Of a stretch of 64,000 nucleotides of DNA, positions 5,242 to 47,170 are shown in pieces. Positions within the stretch are counted from its first letter, which is position 1; every line of letters begins with the position of its first letter. A program made the position numbers and the translations under genes. A model generated the notes under the pieces. The model was given only the letters and a program-made list of their open reading frames with translations, made no database searches and was not told the origin of the DNA. The DNA comes from Typha latifolia. Lineage: Eukaryota; Streptophyta; Magnoliopsida; Poales; Typhaceae. Where the stretch lies: contig CM034113.1 in assembly GCA_019914945.1 (NCBI GenBank), positions 5,250,850 through 5,314,849 on the forward strand, in the 5' to 3' direction.

Positions 5242-6293
5242 TGAAATAATATCTAGACATACGTATGTATCTAAACCCTAGGCAATGATATCACTCCTTT
5301 ACTTAAGTTAAAAGCGAAAGAAATATTAAAAACTAAAAGCAAAGATGGACGCCAAGATTTTAACGTGGAAAAACTCAATCGGGAAAAAACCACGGATCCA
5401 AACTCGAATAAAAACCAATCACTAGAATACTAGCAGTTACAAGATTGACTCACAAAATAACCCGTCGATCCCAACGATTTTGTTCCTCTCAGTCTTGTTC
5501 GCTAGAAACCACGATTCACCGCTTCTCGTGATTGATATCCAACCTCAGTAGCCCTTGAGATTGATCTTTCGTCTAGATAGCCCTTAAGACAAAAGATTAA
5601 TCCTTGTAGAAGAGTTGGACCTTGTTGGTTGAAGAAATGATGTAGCCTCAAGAATTCTCCTTCAAATTGCTTCACCAACCATCCTAGAGTTAGGGCATCA
5701 CAATACTTATAGATGATCTCTAAGATAGAGCCAAATCTAAGTTTTATCCAAACTCACGAAAGTCCAAAAATTGCAAACTTCATAGGTGCGTTCGAACGGG
5801 CCCAAGTGCATTCGAACGCGGTGGCTTGATTTTCACAGGTTGCATTTGAACGGGCAAGTACACTCCTCTGGATGTGTGAACGCGTTGTGAACGTAGTAGG
5901 TGCGTTCAAACGACCCATGATTGCATTCGAATGAGTGTAGAAACAGCACTCACTGTCTGTGTGAACGTCTGCACTCGCGTTCAAACACGCTTGCACTCGC
6001 ATTTGAACGCGCTAGTGAATGCCATTCTCTATCTGTGCGAACGCCTGTGCTCGCGTTCGAACGCGCTTGTGAACGCTGTTCTCTATCTGTGCGAATGCCA
6101 GCGTTTGCGTTCAAACGCGCTTAAAAACACTAGTTACTGTCTGTGTGAATGCGCTGTGAACTCAAAAACTTTTCTCCTTTGATTTTGCAATTCTTCAAAC
6201 CAAATACTTTCTAGATTTGTATAAATGCTCATATACATGTATAAAAATACTTAGAATATTTTGTATATTATTGCCAACACTAAAAACCTAACA
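5242..6293 (-). repeat. Copia 3' LTR
   Basis: This copy aligns along its whole length with 11896-13033 and shares the CTAGACATACGTATGTATC block and the AACGTGGAAAAAC block. It is about 86 bp shorter, mainly because its GTTCGAAC-rich array has fewer units. On the minus strand a TATA-like CATCTATAAGTATT lies near 5703-5716, about 65 bp downstream of the array. A purine-rich tract abuts its start at 6294-6310. Confidence 0.9.
5940..6165. repeat. 54-bp tandem repeat in the Copia 3' LTR
   Basis: The word CTCTATCTGTGCGAA recurs at 6027 and 6081, exactly 54 bp apart, with decayed units on both sides. Each unit carries three GAACGC-type words, one of them the palindrome GTTCGAAC or a C-to-T/G-to-A variant. 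Because 54 is a multiple of three, the array stays open in more than one frame and gives 18-residue repeats; these are not proteins. Confidence 0.85.
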
Positions 6294-6310
6294 ATCTTCC
6301 CCTTTGGCAA
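6294..6310 (-). promoter_or_regulatory. Copia polypurine tract
   Basis: On the minus strand the bases just before the 3' LTR read as a purine-rich CCAAAGGGGAAGAT stretch, the expected primer for plus-strand DNA synthesis. Confidence 0.7.
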
Positions 6311-6786
6311 TTTGTCACAAAACATCTAGTTTACAATAATTACAAAGAATCCTAAATGAGCATTCAATAATTCTAAAAGTTTTAGCACTTCAATCCCTGC
6401 AAATAAAAAATATATCAATCTAAGATCAAGTGAAAATAATATGAAGTGAAAGATCATACATTCACTAAACAATTCAAACACAATAATGCATGTCAAGTTA
6501 TCAAGCAAACACAAGTTATCAAGAAAACACAAGTTATCAAGCAAATTCAAGTTATCAAGCAAATTATCATACAATAAACTCCCCCTAAACTCCTAAACTC
6601 ACTTCTTACTCCCCCTAAACACACGATCTCTTCTAAACTAACTCTCCCCATTTTTGACACAAATTACCAAAGACTAAGAACTAGGAGGAAACTAACGATG
6701 GAGAATCGACAAAACCGAGTTTAGCACTATCCCCTGACGAGCTTGCTTAGCCGTAAGTCATTCACGGCCAACTGTAAGTCTTGCAC

Positions 6787-7725
6787 CTAAGTGCTAAACT
6801 GATTAAACTGTTCAAAGAACTGTGGAAATTCTCCCTTAGGGTGATATGAGTCATCGTCAGAGCTATCATCAGAACTGTCTCGGAGTGATCGACGTTCAGC
6901 GGCGGAAGAGTAGGTCAGCTTGTAAGGAGACGGTGGATCATGAGCTTGACTCCTCTTAATTATGATCTGATCCAATAGTTTTTGGGCAATAATTGCTGTT
7001 TCTGTGGTGTCCACTCTCACACCACTCTGCGTGCACAGTTTGGTGATGAAAATACCAAACGGCAAACCCTCACGAGTAGCTTCTTTTTGTGCAGCTGTCA
7101 AAATAGAATCATATATTATAGCAGCCAAATCAATAGAAACTCCTAACAATATCATATGAAGGAGGAAGGCCCGATCTTGACTGATACTAGAATGCCGAGT
7201 CTTCGAAGTGATGTTGTAGAGACAGATGAGATGTAACATGTGAGCCACCGATGTCAGTTTCGCATGTGGTATCATGTTATCTATCCACTCTTCCCCTTGT
7301 ATTAATACATTACAAGCAATATCTTGAACAGCAAGAAGAGGCTCAGAAGTGGGATACTGGAACTTGCTATCAGGAAGTTGGAATTCAGCACAGATGACTT
7401 CAAAGTCCAAGTACATGGATACCCCTCGGACGGTGGACTATATACATTGTTCCAAAAGAATGGCATTATTGAAAAACTCCTAAACAACCTCCACATACGC
7501 TGTCCCGTCCATTCGACACACTGGAAGCCATCCTCGCTCAGTGAACATCTTTTCTATCCCCAAGGCGACAAAATCAAAGATAACAATCGACCTTTCACAG
7601 ATTATCGGACGAGTTCCAAAATTGTGTTTGCATCTCCGTACAACATTTGATGATGAGAACTTGGGAGCCAAAGATGGTGAGGAAAGCGGCCTTGGCTTCT
7701 TGGAAACTGCAGTATTTTTAGGCAT
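6787..7725 (-). pseudogene. Copia ORF3 in the env position, putative plant transposon protein
   Basis: A 312-codon frame from ATG at 7725 to the stop at 6787, broken by two in-frame TAG codons (7480-7482 and 7438-7440). It lies between RNase H and the 3' LTR, where SIRE/Maximus elements carry an envelope-like ORF. The segment with WIDNMIPHAKLTSVAHMLHL, DRAFLLHMILLGVSIDL and LPFGIFITKLC resembles the 'putative plant transposon protein' domain shared by several plant retroelements. The C-terminus is Ser/Asp-rich. No clear membrane segment or signal peptide is visible. It appears to have its own promoter and a leader intron. Confidence 0.75.
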
Positions 7726-7726
7726 T

Positions 7727-7988
7727 CTAGAGAGAAAAACAAATCGCAAAATTCAACACATGCCCAAAGCATACAAAAAATAATAAGAAAGCCAAAAAAA
7801 ATCCTATAAACCATAAAAGCCCTAAGTGAAATCATCTTCCACTAGAAAAAGCAAATTTGTCACGTTCAATCGCTCAAGAAACATCAAGATAGAAATTCTA
7901 TCGTGATCAAAACTCAAAAACGCACAAAATCAACCAAGATCAAGAGGCTAATATGAATAAAAAATAAGAATTGTATGCACGATCATAC
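7727..7988 (-). other. Candidate leader intron of Copia ORF3
   Basis: On the minus strand a donor CGCGAG/GTATGATC sits at 7988. A pyrimidine-rich acceptor TTTTTCTCTCTAG ends at 7727, one base before the ORF3 ATG at 7725. The 262-bp intron would lie wholly in the 5' untranslated region. Inferred from splice signals only. Confidence 0.5.
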
Positions 7989-8179
7989 CTCGCGAAAAGT
8001 GATGAAAATCTTGATGATTCGACCAAAAGACTTTATATCCGGAGGAGAAATAGCTTTTGAAAGAGTTTGGAGTGAAAATTTTGATGAAAAACGTGAAGAT
8101 CTTGAAGATTTGGGAGAGAGGAAATGAAGGGTTTCTAGGGTTTGAAAGGAGGAAGATGAAAACCCTTGGTTTCGGACGC

Positions 8180-8276
8180 AATATTTAAATAACCCACGAG
8201 TGTGTTCGAACGCACCGGTCTACACATTCGAACGCGCCAGGCACCGCGTTTGAACTCAAGAATCCTGTGTTCGAAC
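8180..8276 (-). promoter_or_regulatory. Candidate internal promoter of Copia ORF3 with GTTCGAAC array
   Basis: Four palindrome-type words lie at 8204 (GTTCGAAC), 8226 (ATTCGAAC), 8248 (GTTTGAAC) and 8269 (GTTCGAAC), spaced 22, 22 and 21 bp, about two helical turns each. Immediately downstream on the minus strand is a TATA-like TTATTTAAATATT at 8180-8192. An AAACCCTAGAAACCC-type leader and a splice donor follow. The arrangement repeats that of the LTR U3 regions but lies in the element's interior. Confidence 0.55.
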
Positions 8277-8289
8277 GCCAATTTTTTTT

Positions 8290-9258
8290 AAATCAGTAAA
8301 AAAATCTAAAATTTTTTTTGGAGATGCACTTTTAAAAATTCAAAATAGATTCAAGACATAGAATATGATAATCAAATGAAATAAGTCATGCATAGATCAA
8401 TCAAATCATTAAGAGTATATTATGATCAATTCTAATGCATCACTCAAATTATAAATTAATCTTGATTGATCATAACAATATGCATATGCAAGTTGAGCAT
8501 AGACAACATGAAACAATGATGCAACACAGTAGTCAAACCGACTTAGTATATAATTATGCACTTTTCGACTTATTCACCAGAACTTGACAGAAAATTTTTC
8601 TGTATATTTTTTTTTTACTAAAACCATATAGTTGCAATGATGACTTTCGCACATGAGTAGGTAGTCATTTTCTTGTAGTACATATCAAATAATGTGCAAA
8701 TAGATATTCACATATATCACCCATTTTTTTTTGAAAATTTTTCAAGCAATGTACTGAGTCAAACTGGATTCTAAACAAGATGGCTTTCGCACTAACTTAT
8801 TGTAGCCCTTTTCATTGACCTTTTATGAACACATTACTATGACTAAGCATGAGGTCAAACTATATAAATCAAGGTCAATAGTGAGCTATCTAAGAAAAAT
8901 ATTTCATGATGTCATGCTCACTCAAGAATATACACCCATTAGGAGTGCATTAAATCTAATTTAATTATTGTAGAAGTCGAGAGAGTGAATAAATCAGAAA
9001 TGACACAATATACTACAAGATGACAAAATTGACTATAATAACTCATAATCAAGAAAAAAAATCATATTTATATGTCAAGAATATATTTTTGAATCTAGAA
9101 GTGCATCATTTTTTTTAAAAAGAAACTCTCAACAAATCTAAAACTGAAACCAAAAAAACAAAATTCAGAGTAAAAGAAAACCTAAAAAAATGAAAAGAAA
9201 TAAAAACACGCAAACCAAAATACAAATCCCTAAAGGAATCAGTCCAAAGCACAAATTC
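8290..9258. other. Copia spacer between RNase H and ORF3
   Basis: AT-rich non-coding sequence with many short A and T runs. No domain is recognisable. Long spacers here are usual for SIRE-like elements. Confidence 0.5.
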
Positions 9259-9725: not shown

Positions 9726-9779
9726 GGCTGATGGTTCTAGTATACTGCAGTCATCTTTGTTCTTTTCAACCTTGTCCTC

Positions 9780-10575
9780 GTTTTGTTTTTCAATTCATAG
9801 ACCAAGCTCATTTTCAATGTCATTGTCATGTGTATCTGTAGGAACAAAAGTAGGAGTAAATTTAGTTTTATTAGCAGTGGTTTTATCTATAATAACATTA
9901 GCAAATTCCATAATAGTAGAAGTGTCAAGATTGAATACTCTATAGGCTCTACTATTATTAGAATATCCTAAGAAGATGCCCTCACTACTCCTAGTGTCAA
10001 ATTTAGTCAAGTGTTCTCGATGACGCAAGATATAGCATTTACTACCAAATACTCAAAAATATTTAACACTAAGTTTCTTACCTTTCCAGATTTTATATGC
10101 AGTCATTTTTGTACCTAATTTTAGATAAACACGATTTAACACATGTACCGCTGTATTGACTGTCTCAGCTCAAAACCTTTGAAGGACCATTTTAGCATGA
10201 AGCATAACCCTAGCCATTTTCTACACAACACGGTTCTTTCTCTCCACAATCTCGTTCTGTTGTGGAGTTATAGGAGCTGAAAATTCATGCTGAATACCAA
10301 GAGAATCACAAAATATGAAAAAAAATTTATTTTCAAATTCTCTACCATGATCAGAACGGATCCTAACTAGGGTAGTAGATTTTTCATTCTACAGTTTTAA
10401 GCATATTGATTTAAAAACTTCAAAGGTTTTAGACTTCTCACGTAAAAAAATAACCTAGGTATATCTGGAGTAATCATCGATCATTAAGAATATATACCGT
10501 TTAGCTCTAAGACTTTTTATTTTTGTTGGACACATTAAGTCCATGTGGACTAATTGTAACACACGGTTAGTGGTA
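9780..10575 (-). pseudogene. Copia integrase core, degenerate
   Basis: Several frames together give the Copia integrase catalytic core: VHMDLMCPT with the first Asp, then MIDDYSRYT, then IRSDHGREFENKF with the second Asp, then QQNEIVERKNR with the catalytic Glu. The conserved LRHREHLTKFDTRSSEGIFL segment ends at about 9940. At least four stops interrupt it. The zinc-binding N-terminus that normally precedes the core is missing, since gag C-terminal words lead straight into VHMDLM. Confidence 0.85.
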
Positions 10576-10636
10576 GCTGCATTTACTTTCTTGTATAAGG
10601 TTTTTGACACGTTCAAGTTCCAGTTTGTACTTCTTC

Positions 10637-11683
10637 TTAAATTGATTTTTTTCTAGTTCGATTGAGTCGTTGAAGTAGTTTAAGATTGCTTTTCTTGAGT
10701 TTAAATGACTCTAGATACAAAACATTATAGGCCTTTTGTATTTCTAATTCTTCTTCTTTAGCTAGTAACACATTCTGTTCATCTGTACTATCAGAATCAA
10801 CAATAGAGTCAGTATTAAAAAGAGAGGAGACGAAAGCTACAAAGTTCTCTTGGTCTTTTTCAGAATCTTCATCAGATTCATCTGAGTCATCCCAAGTGAC
10901 TTTCATAGCTTTACCCTTCCTCCTAAGATGATTAGGGCATTCTTGTGCGATGTGTCCAAAACCAGAATATTCAAAACATCGAACTTTATTATCAGAATTC
11001 TTATTTTTCTATTTCAAATTGTTGTTGCTCACCCTAGTATTCGAACTCACAGGATTCTTTTTTTTTTATAAAGGCTTTATTTTTCTCAAGTTTTTCAGCA
11101 TTTAACTTGTTTGGCTTCCAAAAAAATTATTTAACATTTTAACAAACATGGCCAACATCTCAACATCTAAATTACCTTCATCATCGGACTCCTCTAAATT
11201 ATGATCAATAGTGGTTAGGGTCATATTTTTGGACTTTCTAGGTTTTAAAAGGCTGGACTCAAATGTTTGTAGATTTCCTACCAATTATTCAACCTTCATA
11301 GAATCGATGTCCTTACTTTCCTCAATAGCTGTAACTTTTGTCTGAAACCTTTCTAGAAGAGACCTAAGGATCTTACGAATAATTCTGTTTTCAGGAATTT
11401 TTTCTCCTAGGTTGAAATTGGAGTTGACTATATCACTCAGCTTTGCATAGAACTCATTAAATATTTTATTCTCTTCCATACGTAGAGTTTCAAAACCAGT
11501 AGTCAACCTTTGAAGTTTCGAAAGTTTTACAGCTATGGTTCCTTTGTGAGTAGTTTCTAAGATCGTCCAAGCTTCTTTTGCTATCTCACAAGTAGAAATT
11601 CTTCTAAATTCTTTCAAAGAAACACAACTAAAAATTATATTTATAGCCTTGCTATTCCATCGGTTTCTCAACAAGTTTATCAT
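10637..11683 (-). pseudogene. gag: Copia gag, degenerate
   Basis: The capsid/nucleocapsid protein of the Copia element. The segment 11285-11683 is a clear UBN2-type gag: INIIFSCVSLKEFRRISTCE, TILETTHKGTIAVKLSKLQR, then FETLRMEENKIFNEF. A stop at its end separates it from an in-frame continuation (11102-11284). A zinc knuckle lies near 10930-10985 and reads CFEYSGFGHIAQEC, so the second of its three cysteines is Tyr. An acidic tail and a Leu/Lys-rich coiled segment follow. After this the frame runs almost directly into integrase, and the protease is absent. Confidence 0.85.
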
Positions 11684-11881
11684 TCACCATGTACATTGGT
11701 GCACTCCAACCGTTTACTACGGCAATCCATACTCGCTCATCTATAGACTTCAAGTAAGCTCTCATCCTAACTTTCCAATATCCATAATTTGATCAATCTA
11801 AAATAGGAGGTATGATAGATGATTGTCCATCTCTATGAAAATCCATGCATATCTTATCTCTCTCTGAAGGTGAGAGAACTT

Positions 11882-11893
11882 GCTTTGATACCA
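11882..11893 (-). promoter_or_regulatory. Copia primer-binding site
   Basis: On the minus strand TGGTATCAAAGC lies two bases inside the 5' LTR. It matches the 3' end of initiator tRNA-Met as used by many plant Copia elements, where the tRNA primes minus-strand DNA synthesis. Confidence 0.85.
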
Positions 11894-11895
11894 AT

Positions 11896-13033
11896 TGAAA
11901 TAACGCCTAGACATACGTATGTATCTAAACCCTAGGCAATTATATCAATCTTTTGCTTAAGTAAAAAATGGAAGAAATATTAAAAAAAATAAAGATGGAT
12001 GCCAAGATTTTAACGTGGAAAAACAAAAACGGAAAAAACCACGGATCCAAACTCGGATCAAAACCAATCACTAAAATAGTAGCAGTTATAAAACTGACTC
12101 ACAAAATAACCCGTCGATCCCAATGACTTTGTTCCTCTCAATTTTGCTCACTAGAACCCACGATTCACTGCTTCTCGTGATTGATATCCAACATCAGTAG
12201 CCCTCGAGATTGATTTTTCATCTAGATAGCTCTTAAGATAAAAGATTAAGCCTTGTAGAAGAGTCGGACCTTGTTGGTTGAAGAAATGATGTAGCCTCAA
12301 GAATTCTCCTTCAAATTGCTTCACCAACCACCCTAGAGTTAGGGCATCACAATACTTATATATGATCTCTAAGATAGAGTTAAATCCAAGTCTTATCCAA
12401 ACTCACGAAAGTCCAAAAATTGCAAACTTTGTAAGTGTGTTCGAATGCGGCCCGGGTGCGTTCGAACGACCTAACTTGATCTCTGGTGTGTTTGAATGAC
12501 CTGACTTAATCTCAGGTACGTTTGAACGGGCCCAAGTGCACTCGAACGCGGCGGCTTGATTTTCACAAGTTGCGTTCGAATGGGCAAGTACACTCCTTTG
12601 GATGTGTGAATGCACTGTGAACATAGCAGGGTGCTTTCGAACGGCCCATGACTGTATTCAAACGCGTGCAGAAACAGCACCCACTGTATGTGCGAACACC
12701 TACGCTCGCATTCGAACACACTTGTGAATGCCATTCTCTGTCTATGCGAATGCCTGCACTCGCGTTTGAATGCGCTTGTGAACATTATTCTCTGTCTGTG
12801 CGAACATCTGTACTCGTGTTCGAACGCACCTGTGAACGCTGCTCTCTATCTGTGCGAACGCCAACATTTGAGTTTGAATGCGCTGTAAACGTGGTGTGAA
12901 TTCAAAAACTTTTCTCTTTTGATCTTGCAATTCTTCAAACCAAATATTTTCTAGACTTGTATAAATGCTCATATCCATGTATAAAAATACTTAGAATATA
13001 TTGTACACAATTGCCAACACTAAAAACCTAACA
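11896..13033 (-). repeat. Copia 5' LTR
   Basis: This is the right-hand, transcriptionally 5' LTR of the minus-strand Copia element. The U3 carries a 54-bp minisatellite at about 12650-12895 plus further GTTCGAAC-like copies down to about 12430. The TATA-like CATATATAAGTA follows at 12353-12364. The LTR ends next to the primer-binding site at 11882-11893. Confidence 0.9.
12650..12895. repeat. 54-bp tandem repeat in the Copia 5' LTR
   Basis: The CTCT(A/G)TCT(A/G)TGCGAA landmark occurs at 12736, 12790 and 12844, exactly 54 bp apart, giving at least four units with a degenerate one at 12680. This is one or more units longer than in the 3' LTR. The palindrome core is GTTCGAAC, with variants such as ATTCGAAC and GTTTGAAT. 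Confidence 0.85.
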
Positions 13034-13038
13034 ATCTC

Positions 13039-13400: not shown

Positions 13401-13481
13401 TAGAACCAAAGGATTATCAGAAATTGACACCGAATGTCTATTCCGTATCACATATCTTTTACCGCTCTTCTCAAGTAGCTC

Positions 13482-15620: not shown

Positions 15621-15624
15621 AGAC

Positions 15625-15778: not shown

Positions 15779-15780
15779 GA

Positions 15781-18600: not shown

Positions 18601-18631
18601 GTACAAATACGTATACATCTCCATATATCTA

Positions 18632-19753: not shown

Positions 19754-20701
19754 TGATACGATTCGGACTTCACCGACGTCGTCTCGAGCATGGATTCACT
19801 TTATGAGTGTTTTTATTTCATGTTTTAGTGTTTCATTTCCATTAAAATAAGTTTTCTGTAAGTCACGTTCGAACGCGGGTGGAGTGAGTTCGAACGCGGT
19901 TTGTGAACGGGGTTGTGAACGTGGTGAAGAGAATGTACTGTGCGTTCGAACGCACTGTGAACGCCTGCATCGCGTTCGCAAATACCGACAGGCGCGTTCG
20001 AACGCCTGCATCGCGTTCGCAAATCCAGAAGAGCAAACTCGGTGCGTTCGAACGCGATCGACGAAAATTGTGTTTTTAGGGTTAATTTGAGTTGTTGGTT
20101 AGCCTATAAAAGGATGTGGTAGGCAACCAAATTGATTTTTGATTATTGAGATTGAGTTTTGCCTTGCCTCCTTCGTCTTCTTCACTCCCGTTCTCTCAAT
20201 CCCCGGCAACGCCGCTTCTAACCTCCCTCGTCCGGCTAATCACCCTAGTCCCTTAGGGGTGACCCTCTTCTCCCCCTTCGTCCAATCTATCCCACACTTG
20301 CCCTAATCCTTCCATCAACCACAACCCTTCCACCATCACTTTTCACTGGTGCCACCACATTAACGCCGGTCCTCCACCAACCATCATTACCTAGGATCTC
20401 GTGCCTCCATCCACGAATCCAAAACAGAGCATCCTGACGTTCGTCCACTAAACGGACGACAGCTCGAGATCCACAACTCCGATTCTCCTGAAACTAGATT
20501 TGTTGGAAAGCTCTTTTCTGGGGCTACAACATATCAAAGTTTCACTTTGATCCGACGGCGGAATATTTCGAGATCTTATTTTAAAGTTCCGTGCCAGATC
20601 TAGTCCAGATCAAGAATTGGAAGAGATCGACCCTTCACCAAAAAAGCGAGATCGTATCAAGCTAGTATCAGAGCTTCATAGCCAGAGGCGTGATCGTATC
20701 A
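19754..20701 (+). repeat. Chromovirus 5' LTR
   Basis: Starts TGATACGATTCGGAC and ends GATCGTATCA, next to the primer site. U3 holds five exact GTTCGAAC words, at 19867, 19888, 19944, 19996 and 20046. The TATA box TATAAAA is at 20105-20111, 52 bp after the last word. Near its end (20650-20674) the LTR contains an internal copy of its own terminus plus a primer-site-like CTAGTATCAGAGC, 42 bp before the real terminus. Confidence 0.95.
19862..20065. repeat. GTTCGAAC palindrome cluster in the 5' LTR
   Basis: Ten or more GTTCG/CGAAC words, five of them full GTTCGAAC, the best extended as GCGTTCGAACGC. Spacings include 21 bp between the first two. It stands directly upstream of the TATA box. Confidence 0.9.
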
Positions 20702-20742: not shown

Positions 20743-21321
20743 ATGACGATAACCAGATCCATGGCTGCACGGCGAGATGATGAAGAAGAGATTCTCCCAA
20801 TAGAGGAGGGAGAAACGATTGCAGGGACTTCCACCCGTGGAACCGCCCGATCTAATCAGAATACGGAAGAACCTAGTGTTCAAGCCGTGTTGGGATCTCT
20901 TTCAGAGAAAATGGCCATCAACAACCAGATGATAATGGAGATGATGCGGGAACTACGGGCGACAAAGGAAGCAATGACGAACGAGAAAGCACCATCGACC
21001 CCACGACGCGAGTCCACCCCCTTGAACCCACCGCTACCGGTTCAGCCTTTGCAACCACAAGAGCCGTTGCTACCACCACCCTATGGGTAGAGGCAAGCAA
21101 GGATGGTTACACCAGGTCTAGTTGCAGGTGAACCCATCCGACGGGTGAACCACTATGGAGACCGCCTTGGAGATCAAGATCCGTGGGCAGGTCAATACGA
21201 TCAGGAACCATGGCAAGTTAATCAAAATCGAAGGAGGGATCATCAACCCTTCATGGTGCATCCTCCCCCGGTTAGATAAGGACATGATCCGGAACGAGAC
21301 AATGGCATCCGTGGACAAGTC
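20743..21321 (+). pseudogene. gag: Chromovirus gag N-terminus with two in-frame stops
   Basis: The frame begins at ATG 20743 (MTITRSMAARRDDEEE) just after the primer site and runs in the same frame as the main polyprotein at 21322. It is stopped only by TAG at 21088-21090 and TAA at 21277-21279. The N-terminal part is acidic, then helical (LGSLSEKMAINNQMIMEMMR), then Pro-rich, as in plant Ty3 gag leaders. Each stop is one substitution away from a sense codon. Confidence 0.85.
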
Positions 21322-23343
21322 GTGCGTCTCGAATTTCCCAAGTTCAAAGGTGGCGACCCGATCGATTGGTTGTATAGGGCGGAGCAATTATTTGCATACC
21401 AAGGAACGGCGGAAGAGTACAAGGTGACGCTTGCGAGCTTCCACCTTGAGGATGCGGCGCTTCATTGGTTTCGAGCAGCCAATGCCACTGAGGCTATCGA
21501 AACTTGGGCTGAATTTTACGCCGATATCACACGACGATTTGGAGCATCGGGATATGAAGACTTTGATGCTCTCCTCTCAAAGACGGTGCAAAAGACCACG
21601 GTTGGGTCATACCAAGAAGAATTTGAGAGGATTAGTAGCCGATGTCATCCACCATGGACGGATCAGCAACTTCGCAGCACCTTCATCTCCGGGCTGCGGG
21701 GTGACATACAAGCCGATGTGAGGGCTTTAAGGCCTAGAACCTTAAAGGAGGCCTTCGAAGATGCGGTGCTTATGGAAGACAAACATAGGGCCATGAAGAT
21801 ACACTTGAAACAGAGTTGGATGAGCCAAGGAAGCCGCAATCAAGCTCAACCAAACATAGCGGCGGGAAATACTATCGGAGTACCAAGGGTTGCTGCTACA
21901 GTGGTACCTCCACGAGCACCCTTGAAGCCATCCCAAGATATGAAGTATGCACCTAGAGGTCCGGGACGAGCACTTACACCAGCCCAATTAGAAGAAAGAA
22001 GAGCCAAGGGCCTATGCTTCCGTTGTGATGAGAAGTTTGTACCCGGGCATCGCTGCGCTAAACCGATGGGATCGGTGATGCTAATCGATGGATTGGAGGA
22101 AGCGAAGGACGAGTTTGCAGCTGAAGGTGCAGATGTGGCTGGACATCAAGGAGAAGAAACTGAGGAGCAACCCGTGGAGGATAAGATAGTCGAAATCTCC
22201 CTCCACGCCTATTCGGGGACAGCTACGCCAAAGACCTTGCGGGTGAACGTGGTAGTCAAGAAAACCACAGTGAGAATCTTGATTGACACCGGGTCCACCC
22301 ACAACTTCATTGACAAGAGGCTCCTTAGGAAGATTGGGCTCGAGTCGGAACCCACGGAAGGGTTCGATGTGACGATCGGAGATGGCATCACATTGCGAGA
22401 GGATTCTATTTGTGGAGGTGCGGAATTGAAGGTGCAAGGCCAAACTTTCACATTGGATCTATATCCGTTGGCCTTGCAAGGTGCCAATATTGTTTTGGGG
22501 ACCCAATGGCTTCGAAGCTTGGGGCCCGTGACATTTGATTTTACAAGCCTCACATTGACGTTTTGGAGAAATGACAAGAGAGTGTTGCTAGATGGAAGCC
22601 AACCGCTACTTGAACTTCCAAATGAAGGGGTCGCAAGGGAGCTCGCTTCTTTCTCGGCGCCCACCTTTCCTTTCTTCTCAGATCTGCGGAGAGCTAGTGC
22701 AGAGGATAGTGAGCTGGTCCAACTCATGGAGGAGTTGAGAGAGAACCCCTCAAACCACCCTGAGCACGAGGAGCGCGATGAGTTAGTACTAGAGTGCGGG
22801 CGAATCAAGGTACCCCGGAACGAAGAGCTACGGAGACTATTGATGGCACACTTCCATGATACTCCTATAGCAGGGCATGAAGGAGTATTACATACCTACA
22901 AATGGCTGGCCCAAAACTGTATATGGACAGCAATGAAGACGGACGTGAAGAAGTATGTGCGTGAATGTCAAATCTGCCAACGAGTCAAATCGGAGGCACT
23001 CAAGCCTAGCGGGCTGCTACAACCACTACCTATACCAGAGCGTATTTGGGAGGATATCTCCATGGACTTCATCGAGGGGCTGCCGGAGGTTCGGGGACAA
23101 TCGATGGTGTTTGTTGTGGTGGATAGACTGAGCAAATATGCTCATTTCATAACGTTGTCTCACCCGTTTTTAGCAAAAAGGGTTGCTGAAATTTTTGTTC
23201 GGGAAGTGGCACGCTTGCATGGGATGCCTAGGACGATCGTGTCAGACCGGGATCGCATCTTCATCAGTGAGTTTTGGTCCGAGTTCTTTAGATTGCAAGG
23301 GACTCAAATCAACCTGAGACGGATGGCCAAACCGAGGTGGTGA
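21322..23343 (+). pseudogene. Fused gag-protease-integrase frame, RT and RNase H absent
   Basis: The 673-residue frame contains a retrotransposon gag domain (residues 1-150, FPKFKGGDPIDWLYRAEQLF and LASFHLEDAALHWFRAA), a zinc knuckle (C232, C235, H243, C245), a pepsin-like protease (ILIDTGSTHNFID, active Asp 322), and then the post-RNase H linker with no RT between. The integrase zinc domain (H512, H519, C549, C552) and core (D582, D642) follow. The join lies near residues 436-447 (about 22627-22660) and keeps the frame. The frame leaves integrase just before the catalytic Glu, where a short loss shifts it. Inferred role: structural and integration functions, with RT supplied from elsewhere if it ever moved. 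Confidence 0.9.
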
Positions 23344-23975
23344 ATCGCAGACTGGAACAATACTTGCGATGCTTTGTGGCGGAACGACCAAAGGATTGGG
23401 TCAAATTCCTTCCATGGGATGAGTGGTCATACAATACTGCTCATCACTCTAGCATCGGCATGACCCCCTTTGAGGCGGTTTATGGGCGCACTCCCCCTGT
23501 CTTGCGTGCCTCTGATAGACTCGCGGCGGCGGATAGGACCGAGCTTGACTTGGAGCTTGCTGATCGAGATGAAACATTGAGACTACTCAAGACTCACCTA
23601 GCCACAGCCCAAAACCGCATGAAGCAAACTCATGACAAAGGCCGACGTGAGCGAGAATTTGAGGTGGATCAATTAGTGTTCGTTCGAGCTCAACCGTATC
23701 GACAATCCACATTGAGACCAATTTTGAATCAAAAGTTGGGTTACAAGTACTACGGTCCGTACCGAGTGCTACAACGAATCGGTCCAGTAGCTTACCGGTT
23801 GGACCTACCTGAAGGAACCAGGATACATTCGGTCTTCCATGTATCAGCATTGAAGGCCCAGATCGGGCCTAACCATGTAGTGGGTTCGGCCTTACCCGAA
23901 CTAATGGAGGAGGATGGCCCCACTGAACCGGTCCGAGTATTAGCCGCAGGAGAAGACGCCATGGGATCAGATTAG
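23314..23975 (+). pseudogene. Integrase C-terminus in shifted frame
   Basis: From about 23316 the third frame reads ETDGQTEVVNRRLEQYLRCF, which supplies the catalytic Glu region. It continues through HHSSIGMTPFEAVYGRTPPV to the GPY/F module KYYGPYRVLQRIGPVAYRL and FHVSALK. The shift relative to the upstream frame matches loss of 3n+1 bases between two CCTGAG words, of which one remains at 23313-23318. It stops at 23973-23975 through a second frameshift at the chromodomain. Confidence 0.85.
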
Positions 23976-24103: not shown

Positions 24104-25083
24104 TGATACGATTCAGACTTCACCGACGTCGTCTCGAGCATGGATTCACTTTAGGAGTGTTTTTATTTCATGTTTTAGTGTTTAATTTCCATTAAAATAA
24201 GTTTTCTGTAAGTCGCGTTCGAACGCGGGTGGAGTGAGTTCGAACGCGGTTTGTGAACGGGGTTGTGAACGTGGTGAAGAGAATGTACTGTGCGTTCGAA
24301 CGCACTATGAACGCCTGCATCGCGTTCGCAAATACTGACAGGCGCGTTCGATCGCGCGTTCGAACACCTGCATCGCGTTCGCAAATCCAGAAGAGCGAAC
24401 TCGGTGCGTTCAAACGTGGTCGGGCGAGTTCGAACGCGGTCGACGAAAATTGTGTTTTTAGGGTTAATTTGAGTTGTTGGTTAGCCTATAAAAGGATGTG
24501 GTAGGCAATCAAATTGATTATTGATTATTGAGATTGAGTTTTGCCTTGCCTCCTTCATCTTCTTCGCTCCCGTTCTCTCAATCCCCGGCGACGCCGCTTC
24601 TAACCTCCCTCGTCCGGCTAATCACCCTAGTCCCTTAGGGGTGGCCCTCTTCTCCCCCTTCGTCCAATCTATCCCACACTTGCCCTAATCCTTCCATCAA
24701 CCACAACCCTTCTACCATCACTTTTCACCGGTGCCACCACATTAACGCCGGTCCTCCACCAACCATCATTACCTAGGATCTCGTGCCTCCATCCACGAAT
24801 CCAAAACAGAGTATCCTGATGTTCGTCCACTAAACGGATGATAGCTCGAGATCCACAACTCCGATTCGCCTGAAACTAGAGTTTTTCGAAAGCTCTTTTC
24901 TGGGGCTACAACATATCAAAGTTTCACGTCGATCCGACGGAGGAATATTTCGGGATCTTATTTCAAAGTTCCGTGCCAGATCTAGTCTAGATCAAGAATT
25001 GGAAGAGATCGACCCTTCACCAAAAAGGCGAGATCGTATCAAGCTAGTATCAGAGCTCCATAGCCAGAGGCGTGATCGTATCA
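24104..25083 (+). repeat. Chromovirus 3' LTR
   Basis: Matches 19754-20701 with scattered differences. It is 32 bp longer, chiefly because the GTTCGAAC array at 24210-24440 carries two small extra segments. TATAAAA is at 24487-24493. Bounded by the sequence GCGTGGTGGAT before and CTTTA after. Confidence 0.95.
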
Positions 25084-25088
25084 CTTTA

Positions 25089-39866: not shown

Positions 39867-39867
39867 T

Positions 39868-40928
39868 TAGGCCCGCTGCGAAGACAGTCTAATATGCCAT
39901 GCAACCAAAGTATGGTGTGGTTCCATCATAAAGCTTACTATGCCAAATGAAACATAATTCACCAAGTCCGAAATATGTATGAAGCCTTTTGTTATTAATT
40001 GTAAGATTACATGAGAAAGCTTAAAAAGAAAGATCGAGGTACGCAGCAAAATCTTCATATGCTGCAGTCCCAAATCTGCGTATAATCCTTCTATAAAAAT
40101 CAGCCCATCCGTTAAATCTATCACCACGAAGAATTGATCTATACCAATGCAATGTCGTTCCTTGGAGGTGAAAGCTTGCCATCTAGACTTTTGCATCTTC
40201 CATTGTACTGTGACAATCAAAATATTGTTCAACATGAAACACCCAATCTGTTGGATCACTACCTTGTAATTTTGGAAAGTCCAAGCGTGCGGTTCTCCCC
40301 CGAATAACATTGTCAGGTTCGCGAAAGATCCTTGGTTCAGGTCTAAACCTTTGTGCAAGTTGATCACCTTCTCCAAATCCTCAAGCATGTCCATCACCAT
40401 CTCCATAGGGATAAACCTCATCCTCATAATGCTAATCCTCCTTATCGACGAAGTGCACTGGTGCCGCATACCTCTCGGGTTCCACCATCGCCGATCTTGG
40501 GTTTTGCAATAGAGGTGAGGAATGATGTGTGGGCATAGGTAAGAGGGGATCATTGACACTCGCATGACGCACCTAGACCTGTGGGGTATCAGTTCGATGA
40601 GGTCTCACCGCTGGTCCTTCTTGAAATTCTGATTGTCGTCGAGGAGATAATGAATCAAATCGGTTCATGACATATTTCTTGAAATCATTGTGATCCTTTT
40701 GAATTGAGTCAACTTTATGTATCAATGTATGGAACATGCCTCTAAGTTCATCCATATTCACACTCATGGACGTTGGTTGACTCGGTCCTATCGTGGTCAC
40801 TCCAAAGGAATCGACCTCACGGTTAGGGTCATCGTGGACTGTGTTCTCCCTTATCAGTGTGCTCTCTATAGGTCTCCTTGTTGATGTCATCTTTCTTGTT
40901 TCAACTATTAATAGAGGTCTGAGGTTCG
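39868..40928 (-). pseudogene. gag: Chromovirus gag, degenerate (element E1)
   Basis: It starts at ATG 40890 on the minus strand (MTSTRRPIESTLIRENTVHD) and is open to 40573. The text is closely related to the gag at 51828. After a shift the true gag frame gives RLDFPKLQGSDPTDWVFHVE, MASFHLQGTTLHWYRSIL and RRFGTAAYEDF. The longer open frame at 39867-40565 is a different frame and not the protein. Zinc knuckle and pol are absent, and the element is truncated near 39.87 kb. Confidence 0.8.
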
Positions 40929-40945
40929 CCTGCTCTGATACTAGT
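40929..40945 (-). promoter_or_regulatory. Primer-binding site of E1
   Basis: ACTAGTATCAGAGCAGG on the minus strand follows the LTR end TTATCA directly. It is close to the tRNA-Met complement. Confidence 0.75.
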
Positions 40946-41648
40946 TGATAAGTTTCGATACCACTTGATGAGTTCTTGAACCAAAGATAGGCTATGCAAT
41001 GATTTCTTCAAGATCTTGATGTATTACTAGAATCAGTCTGCGCGATCATGGGAAACATATAGATATGGAGATGAAGGTGGATGGTGGATGTGATTAAGGG
41101 ATATAGACGAAGGAAACGAAGTGGTCGAGATCTCAAAGAAGATGGGGGCTCAATAGTCGAGGGACGTTAGAAGTCAGGAGAAACCTTGTCAACGTTAGAG
41201 GTGGAAGGATGGGGAAGAGAGAGGAGGGAGAAGTCTAGAGAGAAGATAGAAGGCAAGAAATCAATAATCCAATAGCATAAGGAATTTGGCTGCCATCCAC
41301 ATATATATAGAGGCTAGCCAACAAGTCCTAAAATAATATGAAACCCTAATTCTAGAGGATTCCGGTTGATCGCGTTCGAACTCGCCCAATCGCGTTCGAA
41401 CGCACCAAAAGACGTTCTCTATATGTGCGAATGCGATGCAGGCATTCCAACGCGGGCGTTCGAACTCGCCCAACCGCGTTCGAATGCACAATATGCGTTC
41501 TCTATATTTGTGATCTGATGCAAGTGTTCGCAAGTGTGTTCGAACGCGACCCCTCCTGCGTTCGAACGTGACCTATAGAAATTTTATTTTAATAAAAATA
41601 AACACCTAATGCAATAAGAACAGATCTTATCTAAGTGTATCGGATTCA
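40946..41648 (-). repeat. E1 LTR, inner copy
   Basis: Minus-strand LTR from TGAATCCGATACAC (41648) to CTTATCA (40946). U3 has a GTTCGAAC array at about 41370-41575, the TATA-like CTATATATATGTGG is near 41298-41311, and the U5 matches that of the LTRs at 51 and 55 kb. The last 30 bp contain an earlier terminus plus a primer-site-like GTGGTATCGAAAC. Confidence 0.85.
41370..41578. repeat. GTTCGAAC array in the E1 inner LTR
   Basis: Full or near-full words at 41376, 41395, 41457, 41479, 41537 and 41561, with GTGCGAATGC and similar variants between them. It lies about 60-70 bp upstream of the LTR TATA on the minus strand. Confidence 0.85.
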
Positions 41649-41665
41649 CCAAGCTCTGATACCAA
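41649..41665 (-). promoter_or_regulatory. 17-bp primer site lying alone between two LTRs
   Basis: TTGGTATCAGAGCTTGG on the minus strand is all that separates the outer LTR (41666-42511) from the inner LTR (40946-41648). It is a good tRNA-Met primer site for the outer LTR. Confidence 0.8.
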
Positions 41666-42511
41666 TGATAGGGCTACAGAACGATCCCTTCAGGATCTGG
41701 ACTGATTGTAAGAAATAGTTTGCACAACCGAGGGAAAATATTTAGTAAATATTCTCCTATAGTCAGAAAATTATGAAACCAAGTTGGATCGATCCATATC
41801 TTCCTAATCTATAATTTTCTTATTTGCCCTTCACATATTCGAACTACAAGTGGGACAAAATCATGATATAGTGGAGATGAAGGTTGTAGTGATGGGTGGA
41901 ATGGATGTTAGGGTTATGGATGATAAAGGAGATGAGGATGGATGTTTGATATAGTTTGAGGGATAAAAATGAAGGGGAAGAAGTGGTTAAGATCCCAAGG
42001 AGAGAGGACTCAATAGATGAGGGAGATTAGAAGATAAATGAGACCTTGTCAACGATAGAGATGGCTAGTTGTGAAGAGGGAGGAGGGAGATTAGGGTAGA
42101 GAGACTAGAGAGATGACAGAGGAGGATAGAAACTAATATCCATTTAGTATTCTGATTTTGGCTGCCATCCACACCTTTATAGAGGCTAGCCAACAAGCCA
42201 AAATAATAATTATTAACCATAATTCTAGTAGACTCCCGCCGATCGTGTTCGAATGCGTCCGATCGTGTTCGAACGCACAAAAGGCATTCATTGTCAATGT
42301 AAACTAATACAGGCATTCACATGCGGCGTTCAAACACGCCCAACCTTGTTCGAATGCACATTTTGCGTTCTCTATTTTTGCGAACTGATGCAGACTTTCA
42401 CAAAGGCATTTGAAAGCACCCCCCTTCCGCGTTCGAACGCGACCTACAAAAAATTATTTTAATAAAAATAAGCAACTAATACAATAAAAAAGACTCTAAC
42501 TAGGTATATCA
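41666..42511 (-). repeat. E1 LTR, outer copy
   Basis: Minus-strand LTR from TGATATACCTAG (42511) to CCCTATCA (41666), 846 bp. It aligns with 40946-41648 with more decay. GTTCGAAC-type words run from 42245 to 42441, with TTATA at about 42177-42181 some 62 bp downstream. Confidence 0.85.
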
Positions 42512-42533
42512 ATTAGAGTACACATAAGAGGCC

Positions 42534-43330
42534 TCAAGACTGTCTTGACATCGGTGGAAGTGCAATATGGTGATTGTTGTCCCACTACCCGCATGAGCCC
42601 TCGGCGAGTAGGTCGAGCCGTCGGGTGCATGCATCAACTTCAATTGTGGCTTGCTACTCTATGGAAATCTCGAGTGCTCTTCGAGTGCTCGATGTTTGTC
42701 CTCCATGAGCATAACATCCTCTATGACTTGCCCTAGATCCATAAGTCATAGAGCTCGTACGTCGGCTTGAATGTCCTCCAATAAATCGATGATGAATGTG
42801 GATTTGAGCTGAATATCTAACCATAGTGGTGTGCATAGGCTGGACAATTGTTCAAATTCCTCTTGGTAGGCTATAACATCTTCTTCTGGACTGTCTTTGT
42901 CAAGATAGCATAAAAGTCTTCATAGCGCGATGATCCAAACCATTTGTAGACCAAACGGTGAAACTAGATCTCCACATTTTGATTGGCCTATGAGTGGTAG
43001 CCGACCGAAACCACTATAGCGCCACATCCTCGAGGTGGAAAGATGCAAGGAAAACCTTTTTGGTCCTCCTCCGTGTCTTGGAAGATGAATAATTGTTCAA
43101 CACGATAGAGCCAATCAACTAGATCTCCACCTCGAAATTTAGGAAACTCCAACTGAACAACGTGCTCGCAGATGCCAGTATCACGGTTGGGGTCGAATCT
43201 TGCTCCAATCATAATCAGAGGTGGGTGCTCCTCTAGCCATACATGATTCCTCTGACATCCTCTATCAACTTCATCTTTCTCTTTATCCCTCTCAATACAG
43301 GGATCATCATCATCTTCATCTATAAACTGT
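42534..43330 (-). pseudogene. gag: Chromovirus gag fragment (element E2)
   Basis: The minus strand reads ARFDPNRDTGICEHVVQLEF, then PKFRGGDLVDWLYRVEQLFI, then in other frames further gag text. This is related to, but distinct from, the gag at 21322. E1's outer LTR begins immediately left of it, suggesting E1 inserted into E2. E2's own promoter-side LTR may be the remnant at 46140-46500. Confidence 0.75.
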
Positions 43331-43599
43331 GCTTATCGGTGAGGCCCACCTATCCTCGGCTCGAGTGTGGTCTCTCTCTTGTCCTTGGCCGACTAGTGGA
43401 ACTATCATGGGAGGTTCTGGTGTGGAAGATTTTGGTACCTTATGTCTAGTGTTTTATTGTGCGATTGTTTGATTCAAGGTTCCTATGGTTTGTGCAAGGA
43501 TGGTGGAGAAGGTCTATCCAAAACTTCAATGGACTTTAATTGCATCTCTATGTTTGGGTTGATAATGGAGGGTGGAGGAGGCAGCGCTATGTCTGCATG

Positions 43600-46136
43600 G
43601 TCTGCTTGTCCTTGGTTGCTTGTGGGTGGTGTAGAGTTCCTCTCTCCGGTGCGCCTCTCTCTCTCTCTCTATCTTTTTATTCTTCTCTCTCTCTCTCGTT
43701 CGGTCTCTCTCTCTCTCTTTCTCTCCCACTGCCGACCCGCCGCCGCTGTCGTCGTGCTGTCGCAGATGAGCCTCCTTCTTCCTTTTCTTTCTTCTCTCTC
43801 TCTCTCACTATCTCTCTCTCTTTTTATCTTTTTCTCTTTTTCTTGCTTTAGGCTCGGGTCTGTCGGAGCCGAGCCGCTGGTGAGAGGCCGGCAGCTGGCT
43901 GGCCACCAGCTGCCAGTGCCCTCCCCGCTGGCCCAGGTCCGCACCTCCCTCCCCTCATCCCTTCTTCTTCTCCTTCCTCAGTTTTTGCTCTTTCTTTTTC
44001 TGCACAGTGCTGGGCTCGGACCAGTACTTTAGTAGGCAGTGCTGGGCCGAGCCCAACACTGATGGCAATTTTTTTTACTATTTATTTAATTAATTATTTA
44101 TTTATTTATTTTATTGATGTTGTTTATTTAGGTTTTTGCTTCTTAATTAATGCAAATAGATTATTTAGATATTAATTATTTTAATAATAATCTATAATCT
44201 TCAATATGATTAGTATTAATTATAATTTGTATAATGAATGATTAATTAGGTATAAATATAAGTAATAGTCATATTTATTTATTTATATCTCTATTAGATT
44301 AATATATAGATTTGTAAATTATAATTATCAAATTTATATACTAATATTTTTATGAGATACATTTTAAATAATTCTAATAATTTATTATACATTATTATTT
44401 TGTAACAAATAAAATAATTAGCTTATGTATTTATTTATTATTTTATAAAGTAATGACTACATAGTCCCTAATTAATCAAGATATAATTTAATTATAATTA
44501 GGTTTTTATCTATATTTATATTTTTATTTATAATTAAAAATCTAGCTAGTTATAAAAATAAGTAGAAATTCTAAAATCTAATAAATCATCATATTTTACT
44601 CGAACGGATTATAATGGAATAAATAACTAACTTTATATTACTTGAACATTTTTAGATCCCGAACCCCTTATTTGAGACTCCGTGGACCTTGCTAGCGATG
44701 AGTGTCACTCGGTTGATTGGCAAATGTGAGGGATATGTGGTTTGCGTCTTCTGATCAGGGTGAGTAGTTTTATCCCTTAGACGTCTTTCTTAAATTAGGA
44801 TATATTATATCTTATGTATATGTATGTTTTGGCCTCCATCATGATTATATGACTTTATCTAGAGATGATTACAGTTGAGCATATTTTATCATGCATCTAA
44901 TTAGGTTGATCTAGGATATGAGCACATTGGTGATATATAGAGATGATGAGAGATGATTATATTGTTATAATGTTATGTCTAGTTGATCTGTAGCATGAGT
45001 ATGCATATAATTGATTAGCTTGAGTATGCATATGTTGACTACATGATTAGAGACTATATTGCATTATTTTTCTCGTGATTCCTGTTCCACCTAAATTCCT
45101 ATTATACATTGACTTGTTATTGTACTAGATATATGCATATGATCTGTCATTCAAAAGGAAAGTATGAAATGTGATTAATATGATAGTTTATAAAAAACGT
45201 GAGGATACCAGAGTGGGCGCGAAGGTTATGACGCGCTTTGTGGATGATTGATTGCTCGACATAGTCGCGATCCTATTAGCCTTACATCCAAGGTCATTAG
45301 TCTGTGTACGCAGCAGACATTCGGACACATGCCGTTCGCTAGGGAATATGTGGCGAGTTATCCTCACGAGGTTTCTATCAGTTATACAGTGTCGATGATT
45401 ATATAGTTTATCAGTTATGACATGACATGTTATCTATTTTTTATTTATGTATTATTGAGAAACATTCATATACTCATTCATGACATGATGCTCTTTCTGA
45501 TTCATATTATTCAGTACATGATTTACTCTCTGTTTGGCATCACTAATTCGGGGTAAGGTCTATTTACTAAGGATTTTGCTCATAACTCTCTTTATTTATT
45601 TCTTTTTAACCCCCACAGATATTATGGTACGTGATACCGTCTTGAGATAGCCCGATGAGATATTTTAGAGCAAAAATGAGGTAAGCTATAGAGGTGAGAC
45701 AGTATAGATGATAGTTTATATAGAAATTGAGTTGTACCAGTATTTGATATTTGTACTCTTTTGTATCAAACGATGATCTGTATGATACAGGTCGAATCAT
45801 GGCGTACTCTTGTATTAGTTATTTTAGTTGTATCTTGATAGTTTGTTGTGGCATGTGTGGGTCCTGCCAGATTATGTAGTGGTTAAATGTATATTATTGT
45901 GGACTGGGATATTCATATGTTAATAGGTTTATTTGGTTAATAATATGATTTATCTAGTGATGGATTATGTGATCATGGATAGGTTAGCAAGTTTTATTTG
46001 ATGATGTCATAATTATATGTGCACATGAGAGTATCTATGCGTGACGGGGCCCGCCCGACTTGTCGCATGCGCCGCGCGTGCCATGTGGGCGCATGAGCGT
46101 GCACGTGCCTGTGCCGGGCGGGGGCGTTACACCACT
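43600..46136 (-). repeat. Large Tekay-type LTR, left end uncertain
   Basis: On the minus strand it begins TGTAACGCCCCCGCCCGG at 46136, a start typical of Del/Tekay LTRs. It then passes through AT-rich text and a GTGATACCGTCTTGAGATAG segment to a GC- and CT-rich part at 43.65-44.04 kb. No gag or pol is attached. The left border is not defined by a repeat or TSD. The frames in the CT-rich part are low-complexity artefacts. Confidence 0.55.
43650..43835. repeat. CT microsatellites
   Basis: Runs of (TC)n interrupted by short GC-rich pieces at 43652-43725 and 43793-43835. They account for the Leu/Ser-rich open frames here. Confidence 0.85.
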
Positions 46137-46139
46137 ATT

Positions 46140-46500
46140 GCAATCGCACACGAAGAAATAGATCTCAATCCACATTGTAATACTGGACAGAACTTTCAAA
46201 GGCAGTAGGGATCAATCTAATCATCATAATATTATGAGATTCAGATATATTAGGAATCCAATGCAATCAGAATCTCATCGATCAAGCAGGTAGATCAAAA
46301 GATATGAGGGAGATTATGACCAAAGATAAGGAAATGACGAGATAGATGGACGTGGATAACGAAAGTTGGTGATGTGGTTAGGGTTAGGATTATGGAAGAT
46401 GATGATGGTTGTGGTAGATGAAATATTATCTTGAACAAGATGAGGGGGAAGAAGACAGCTTCCATGTATGGCTAGTCGGTGGAGTGAGGAGGAAGAACTT
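46140..46500 (-). repeat. LTR U5 remnant related to E1
   Basis: The GGTTAGGGTTAGGATTATGG and GATGAGGGGGAAGAAGACAG segments correspond in order to the leader part of the LTRs at 41-42 kb. It probably belongs to E2 and is cut off by the Tekay-type LTR at 46136. Confidence 0.4.
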
Positions 46501-47170
46501 TATTTTTCATAAGTGTTAGAAAATCGTTCAAACATTTTTTCAAAATGTTGTTCCATTCGAAAGTGATATGCTCGGTTTAAAGAAAAGTATCAACAAATAG
46601 CAAGTGGATATCCAACATGGGATAAGCATTGAAACAAGATTTTTCAAAAAGTCCACTATGTCTATCATGGGAAAGGTGTTCAAACTAGATTTTCTAGAAA
46701 GTCCATTGTATCCAATGTAGGAAAGATGTTAGAATGAGATCTGCCAAAGAATTCATTCTGTGCAATGTAGGATAGACGTTCGAATGACTGGCTAAAGACT
46801 TCAAACATTGGAAACCCGTTCGAATGGGATTTTGGAACGTGATGATGGAACTTCAACCCGTTCAAACGCTCGAGATCTTGTTTGAACGGATTTGTTAAGT
46901 CTGCTCTCATTGGACCAATTTAGATTTTTTTTTCTAGAGGCTATCTTTCTGGGCATATAAAATGGCAACTTGAGAAAGGTGTGGGCACATTGAGCTACAC
47001 TTAAGAGGAAGGAGATGTATTTTTGGAGATGCCAGAAGATTGAAGATATTGGAATCATCTCATGCTCGTTTAGTCTAAGATTGAAGAAGATATTTAAGAT
47101 TGCCAAGGGTCGCTAAGATTGAGCTACAACTTTAAGGGTCAACAAGATTGTGAACCAAGCACAATAAGCG
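46500..47170 (+). repeat. LTR-like region with TATA box and 50-bp repeats
   Basis: A 50-bp minisatellite with GTTCGAAT-type words is followed by the TATA-like CATATAAAATGG at 46955-46966, then a leader of about 200 bp. The order repeat array, TATA, leader is that of the other U3 regions in the window. No partner LTR or internal region was found. Confidence 0.5.
46596..46835. repeat. 50-bp tandem repeat with GTTCGAAT words
   Basis: The landmark GTCCA(C/T)T(A/G)T recurs at 46651 and 46701, and ATTCATTCTG at 46751, exactly 50 bp apart, with decayed units either side. Each unit ends in a GTTCAAAC, GTTAGAAT or GTTCGAAT word. Confidence 0.75.

Follow-up and report, generated by a model that had tools for sequence, protein, structure and literature searches.

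Results

Clusters of a 12-letter palindrome, GCGTTCGAACGC, lie just before TATA-like boxes in the long terminal repeats (LTRs) of both Copia and Ty3 retrotransposons in a 64-kb stretch of the Typha latifolia genome (GCA_019914945.1, contig CM034113.1, positions 5,250,850 to 5,314,849 of the forward strand; hereafter the window). We propose that these arrays are a promoter-proximal switch that was passed between unrelated elements and predict that they are read by one dimeric nuclear factor, a reading to which we assign a probability of roughly 0.55. A preliminary description, made from the window's sequence, had suggested a module that was either transferred or convergent. A promoter-proximal module shared by Copia and Ty3 is borne out and, because an oriented companion motif at similar spacing is shared as well, there is moderate support for favouring transfer between co-resident elements over convergence on the bare word. 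A single genome was examined, and all family comparisons were made within it.

A single word in large excess

The window contains 23 copies of the core GTTCGAAC, where 100 dinucleotide shuffles average 0.45 (largest 3), and eight copies of the full palindrome GCGTTCGAACGC. With up to three mismatches allowed, boxes cluster at 5788-6118, 8168-8278, 12437-12881, 19865-20055, 24215-24437, 41372-41569 and 42245-42440; the arrays previously described in the Copia LTRs, inside the Copia element and in the LTRs of two Ty3 elements (Chr and E1) were all recovered. An array claimed for an orphan LTR at 46596-46885 did not hold up: there is no GTTCGAAC and only three boxes with two or three mismatches (46776..46869, no strand assigned; a decayed candidate array, not confirmed). 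Used as a query with its array masked, this site weakly matched the box-bearing places L066, L075 and L084 (54-88 bits). No box was found in three further repeat pairs of the window that were treated as LTRs (51.3-55.8, 56.6-62.6 and 59.6-61.9 kb), one of which encloses matches to reverse transcriptase and weak matches to protease, so LTRs do not carry the array as a rule.

Genome-wide (214.2 Mb, 62 contigs), a count that the preliminary description had called for, there are 14,944 exact copies of GCGTTCGAACGC and none of a reversed control word. The 64-word class GCGWWSSWWCGC totals 15,679, to which the other 63 words contribute only 735, so that 95% of the class is the single word GCGTTCGAACGC. 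Given the core GTTCGAAC, base agreement reaches the limits of the 12-mer and mostly falls off beyond. Over the 8.8 Mb of contig 1 that hold the first 50 listed copies, the density is about 6 per Mb; the genome average is 70, so that copies are concentrated elsewhere in the genome. Neither the unit nor tandem boxes turned up in scans of viral contigs and prokaryote genome contigs.

Contig 1 holds 24 word-bearing places up to 8.79 Mb, and at least two boxes (at most two mismatches) were present in 22 of the 23 that were read. Sirevirus (Copia), E1 and Chr places were assigned by blastn with arrays masked and the remaining family labels by eye, which gave eight Sirevirus, five E1, one mixed E1/Chr, three ORP, two T3b and one T3c place, one place of a second Copia lineage (L073), one Copia-like LTR (L071) and one lone box (L067). 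Families beyond Sirevirus, Chr and E1 had been missed at the outset. The lone box of L067 (contig 1, ~3093232) is exact and stands just 5' of a CT-rich stretch with an ATG; the locus had no match to the window's elements and could be a host promoter.

Spacing is family-specific, with 53-54 bp in Sireviruses (genome-wide, 1,101 exact box pairs have this spacing), pairs every 63 bp in L073 and irregular intervals in Ty3. On contig 1, at 10344512-10344604, tandem boxes are spaced by 27 bp, unlike the Sirevirus 53-54 bp, and possibly represent another array-bearing family.

Copia and Ty3 elements that carry the arrays

The window's Copia element is identified as a Sirevirus by its CA/ATTGG junction, its extra AGGGGGAG tracts, its Copia gag and integrase pieces and an env-like open reading frame (ORF). 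Its features, all on the minus strand, are:

11896..13033, minus: 5' LTR, one of a repeat pair, ends CA/ATTGGTATCAaAGC; TACCAATTGAAAT at 11889, CCTAACA at 13027
12437..12881, minus: 5' LTR box array, 12 boxes (at most three mismatches), 54/108-bp period
12355..12364, minus: 5' LTR TATA-like box
11285..11683, minus: Copia gag piece (Retrotran_gag_2)
9795..10652, minus: Copia integrase pieces (SH3_retrovirus; a weak rve fragment, E 0.0057)
8202..8278, minus: four-box internal array that precedes the env-like ORF, plus a fifth box (three mismatches) at 8168
8182..8191, minus: TATA-like TATTTAAATA after the internal array, with a CT-rich leader next
6787..7437, minus: env-like ORF, PF20167 (Transposase_32), 216 amino acids (aa); relatives have 358-aa open frames
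6579..6616, minus: two extra polypurine tracts AGGGGGAG in the Sirevirus linker, a feature given in PMC2829016
5242..6293, minus: 3' LTR, the other member of the repeat pair
5788..6118, minus: 3' LTR box array, 11 boxes (at most three mismatches), 54-bp period; companion units at 6023-6042 and 6077-6096
5706..5713, minus: 3' LTR TATA-like box

The Sirevirus junction given in PMC2829016, CA/ATTGG with the primer site TATCAGAGC, reads CA/ATTGGTATCAAAGC here (minus strand, 11889-11896), with one change. By the 3' LTR, the extra tracts stand at 6579 and 6609, and the terminal polypurine tract is AGGGGAAG, again with one change, followed by the AT/TG attachment site. The env-like ORF lies between pol and the 3' LTR. 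No reverse transcriptase match was found among the 12 Copia pieces searched, and the LTR pair has diverged by a Kimura two-parameter distance (K2P) of 0.129. As published for the RM boxes of Sireviruses, the boxes are palindromic, number at least eight per element (11 and 12 in the two LTRs) and recur upstream of the env-like gene (8202-8278 array); the CGG-CCG core is replaced by a different one and, rather than being restricted to Sireviruses, GCGTTCGAACGC is also present in the Ty3 elements Chr and E1 and in the second Copia lineage.

Chr and E1 are assigned to Ty3 because the Chr frames match gag, protease and integrase in Pfam and because loci with E1 LTRs encode related proteins (gag and integrase akin to those of Chr, mostly 45-65% identical by tblastn). 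Their features are:

19754..20659, plus: Chr 5' LTR, TGATACGAT...ATCGTATCA
19865..20055, plus: Chr 5' LTR box array, five boxes, three of them exact
20103..20113, plus: Chr 5' LTR TATA box CCTATAAAAGG
21280..23975, plus: two Chr open frames with Ty3 gag, protease and integrase matches (Pfam)
24104..25041, plus: Chr second LTR, 96.4% identical to the first over 895 aligned bases, K2P 0.037
24215..24437, plus: Chr second LTR box array, seven boxes; TATA at 24485
41041..41660, minus: E1 LTR copy a, limits approximate
41372..41569, minus: E1 copy a box array, seven boxes; companion at 41413-41432 and 41496-41515; TATA at 41302
41881..42510, minus: E1 LTR copy b, 80.8% identical to copy a, limits approximate
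42245..42440, minus: E1 copy b box array, seven boxes; companion at 42366-42385; TATA at 42175

No reverse transcriptase match was found in the Chr open frames; the frame at 21280-23343 runs uninterrupted through gag, protease and integrase without one, and the copy looks internally deleted. After the second Chr LTR, 25042-25083 is 97.6% identical to the primer-site region that follows the first (20660-20701). This gives Chr a second LTR-internal junction, which may have arisen through unequal recombination or belong to a truncated tandem element. The two E1 copies (K2P 0.224) may not be one element's LTR pair. The primer-site word TATCAGAGC (41653-41661, minus strand) stands between them with almost no internal region, and the pair looks like a deleted element; two minus-strand frames beside them (245 and 144 aa; 39867-41007) had no Pfam match.

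By its coding content, the L073 family is a second Copia lineage. Its LTR copies lie 4.4-5.0 kb apart in eight same-strand pairs (from 40 scored matches of 243 candidates), Copia Pol_BBD, integrase and RVT_2 are encoded between the members of one pair, and the protein there is 26-42% identical to the window's Sirevirus pieces over 36-62 aa. L073 is the one place where the array of this lineage was read; in another LTR copy (C1:11931037), GTTCGAAC precedes TATAAATA by 33 bases. T3b, T3c and ORP are taken to be Ty3 because their promoters resemble those of E1 and Chr, and L071 is labelled Copia-like from its primer site CAACAAATTGGTATCAGAGC.

The arrays precede TATA-like boxes

In 65 of 90 LTR arrays a TATA-like box follows the last box within 160 bp, compared with 18 of 90 that have one on the other side. 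Where one was found, the distance is 29-111 bp, with medians of 74 bp in Sirevirus LTRs (31 of 37), 62 bp in E1 (27 of 34) and 49 bp in Chr (4 of 11), and single values of 31 bp (L073), 51 bp (L071) and 88 bp (L001). None was found within 160 bp in three ORP and two T3b arrays. The preliminary description had put this distance at about 50-75 bp. Searching for GTTCGAAC with TATA 20-50 bp behind it gave no clean test, with 464 and 529 hits on the two strands versus 470 and 194 for the reversed control pattern.

An oriented companion is shared across families

In the first cross-family alignment, the Copia 3' LTR scored 55 against E1 copy a on the same strand (shuffle maximum 25) and 34 on the opposite strand (shuffle maximum 26); opposite-strand scores were often above shuffles in these first alignments because the boxes are palindromic. 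The motif GTTCGCACAKATAGAGAAYG (at most three mismatches) has eight matches in the window, all in Sirevirus or E1 LTRs and all on the element's strand. Among 83 arrays that were not fetched with the companion, A[CT]AGAGA was present in sense in 44 and in antisense in none. Sense companions were found in 32/37 Sirevirus, 7/7 E1, 2/2 T3b, 1/1 T3c, 1/1 second Copia and 1/3 ORP arrays. When arrays from 30 companion-fetched loci were added, Chr reached 4/11 in sense and 1/11 in antisense, and E1 32/34 and 1/34 (mixed loci were excluded from the array sets by a fixed rule). The companion follows the nearest upstream box by 18-20 bp in 59 of 78 occurrences (Sirevirus 52/61, E1 4/10, T3b 1/4, T3c 1/1, ORP 1/1, second Copia 0/1), and Ty3-to-Sirevirus array alignments score better in sense than in antisense in 8 of 10 cases.

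Boxes recur ahead of the env-like gene

PF20167 gave 858 candidates in the genome, of which 150 were scored and the 30 best-scoring fetched. A cluster of at least two boxes lies upstream of the ORF in 27 of these 30 loci; L035 and L057 have one box each, and L046 has a cluster with env-type spacing that lies farther upstream, beside a Chr-like piece. A TATA-like TTTAAATAT follows the last boxes in 15 of the 30, and a CT-rich leader follows the TATA-like box in the 14 loci inspected for it. From this succession of last boxes, TTTAAATAT and CT-rich leader, we infer an internal promoter ahead of the env-like ORF.

Four loci (L045, L050, L051 and L053) have 358-aa open env-like frames with a basic N-terminus, the PF20167 domain and an acidic serine-rich stretch. 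A low-confidence structure model of the L053 protein (mean predicted local distance difference test, pLDDT, 32) has a C-terminal helical stretch, and a hydrophobic segment lies near residue 195 of the env-like protein. No DNA-binding domain was recognised in this protein, which had one database relative and no credible solved structural relative (best E 0.13).

Discussion

How the module would act and spread

Each box would bind a symmetric dimer, and clustered boxes would recruit this dimer and boost transcription from the adjacent TATA box; dense clustering at a set position ahead of TATA is in keeping with binding by a dimeric activator. The same factor would also act on the internal promoter of the env-like ORF. 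A box-bearing element, probably the Sirevirus in view of the palindromic boxes published for 13 Sireviruses, may have passed the module to Ty3 and to the second Copia lineage through recombination or template switching. Boxes would multiply and drift as short tandem units, giving each family its own period. A more tentative and rather doubtful extension is that the two-part module, palindrome plus oriented companion, serves as a common currency through which Ty3 and other Copia elements tapped a Sirevirus activator, possibly Sirevirus-encoded; if true, whole element communities would share, and change, their switch together.

Several observations weigh against a module that was passed on. The companion was picked after inspection, and the 83 arrays include the seven window arrays where it was first noticed. 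It is present in 0/3 Chr arrays (0/2 without L046, counted as Chr and probably an env array), in 0/1 for L071 and in 0/28 env arrays, and it lies 8 bp from the box in the second Copia and 30-33 bp from it in 6/10 E1 and 3/4 T3b cases. Under spacer shuffles that preserve the boxes, only 5 of 10 Ty3 arrays align to Sirevirus above all 40, and spacer 8-mers shared by Sirevirus and E1 number 71 in sense and 69 in antisense (95 and 121 in a second count), a lack of sense preference that probably arises because decayed half boxes are palindromic. The edge of the box is blurred in places, with C preceding 81% of Sirevirus boxes and G following 76% of Chr boxes. T3b, T3c and ORP were called Ty3 by eye, and L071 Copia-like by primer site, not by protein. 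Finally, arrays within a family share descent, so that the independent evidence amounts to about six families.

Transfer or convergence

In the convergent alternative, GCGTTCGAACGC is the target of a host transcription factor, and this target arose and multiplied independently in unrelated LTRs, with no exchange of DNA. The missing companion in env arrays, in L071 and in the window's Chr LTRs would follow naturally from it, as would the varying periods and the half of the alignments that do not exceed spacer shuffles; boxes described as near-identical in Sireviruses of distant hosts (PMC2829016) also fit a conserved host reader. What weakens convergence on the bare word is the companion, oriented and at similar spacing in several families with no antisense case in the 83 arrays; the published boxes, moreover, vary among Sireviruses, and none of those in Table 3 of PMC2829016 equals GCGTTCGAACGC. 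We therefore regard convergence as possible, though unlikely.

Other explanations

It is improbable that the arrays exist mainly as RNA or methylation targets, their self-complementary units forming hairpins and CpG-rich islands that feed small-RNA silencing. Three LTR arrays do form more stable RNA folds than any of their shuffles (z -3.6, -4.6 and -4.5), CpG observed/expected is 1.2-1.9 in five window arrays vs 0.7 for the window, and CpG transitions make up 30-55% of box changes, depending on the family. The strong folding and CpG enrichment make a silencing role possible. Any palindrome array would fold stably, however, the env array folds no better than chance (z -1.3, matched by 24 of 200 shuffles), and the place before TATA and the presence before env are left unexplained. 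A study in maize is said to have dealt with Sirevirus palindromes and small RNAs.

Slightly more doubtful still, and argued by analogy, is an activator or anti-silencing factor encoded by the elements themselves, whereby a Sirevirus protein (the PF20167 env-like protein being the candidate) would bind its own boxes and Ty3 elements would parasitise it. Such a factor would suit the presence of boxes at both the LTR and the env promoter of one element, as well as the basic N-terminus and acidic serine-rich stretch encoded by open env-like frames. The parallel is with VANC proteins, which bind tandem motifs in VANDAL elements and whose targets are noncoding tandem-repeat motifs that differ from one related element to the next (PMC5735166). 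The PF20167 protein, however, has no recognised DNA-binding domain and its structure model is unusable, while its hydrophobic segment fits the membrane segments reported for env-like ORFs (PMC3414828). According to PMC2829016, 4 of 13 box-bearing Sireviruses are without env, and its near-identical boxes in distant hosts argue against rapid co-evolution and for a conserved reader.

We consider it very unlikely that host CPP/TCX proteins (LIN54-type, of the DREAM complex) recognise the box as a CHR-like site. The LIN54 consensus TTYRAA does cover TTCGAA (PMC4974476), and the host genome has CXC-domain genes (TCR, PF03638; nine matches). LIN54, however, binds best with Y=T or R=A, as given in the same paper, and the intact box has Y=C and R=G; since TTCGAA is not the favoured form, CPP/TCX is a weak, disfavoured candidate, and the conserved bases reach past the 6-mer. 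A single satellite or minisatellite inserted in several LTRs, or chance and CpG composition, is largely refuted: the 53-54-bp tandem pairs and the 27-bp array (contig 1, 10,344,512) recall a satellite, a possibility that the preliminary description had itself raised, but in the places read periods and spacers are family-specific and TATA distances tight, and the contrast between 14,944 copies of one word and 735 of its 63 sister words speaks against chance.

Relation to known systems

Each retrotransposon lineage is usually assumed to have LTR promoters of its own. A countable module shared across superfamilies would make regulatory DNA transfer between retrotransposons directly testable, would offer a handle on what Sirevirus RM boxes and the env-like gene do, and would explain joint switching-on or silencing of unrelated elements. 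In Tnt1 and Tto1, short repeats in U3 upstream of TATA act as enhancers, each within one element family; we know of no cross-superfamily sharing of these repeats.

Searches of the literature with GTTCGAAC and GCGTTCGAACGC returned no plant LTR work among the matches listed. No box common to Copia and Ty3 was reported in the titles and abstract openings of the matches listed, nor in the available text of PMC2829016 (Bousios et al., 2010). That study, which analysed Ty1/copia elements, describes palindromic RM boxes before TATA in Sirevirus LTRs and again upstream of env, and reports them as Sirevirus-specific. The Copia arrays of the window, as the preliminary description had missed, match these boxes: they are palindromic, multi-copy and CpG-rich, and lie in the LTR just before TATA and upstream of the internal env-like gene, in an element with the Sirevirus junction and extra polypurine tracts. 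They differ in that GCGTTCGAACGC is absent from Table 3 of that paper and is without the CGG-CCG core (as is Tnd-1 in the same table). On these sequence comparisons, the Copia half of the finding is thus already known, the array type being that of the published RM boxes with a different word. What appears to be new is that, unlike the Sirevirus-specific boxes, GCGTTCGAACGC also stands before TATA in Ty3 LTRs and in a second Copia lineage.

The likeness to the CHR/LIN54-CPP site (PMC4974476) is confined to TTCGAA within TTYRAA, the site here being 12 bp long, set in dense arrays and not of the optimal LIN54 form. The VANC targets of VANDAL transposons (PMC5735166 and PMC10398659) are closer in kind, as short motifs in fast-changing noncoding tandem repeats of plant elements; in contrast to VANDAL, where a transposase and a known VANC factor are at work, the motif described here crosses retrotransposon superfamilies.

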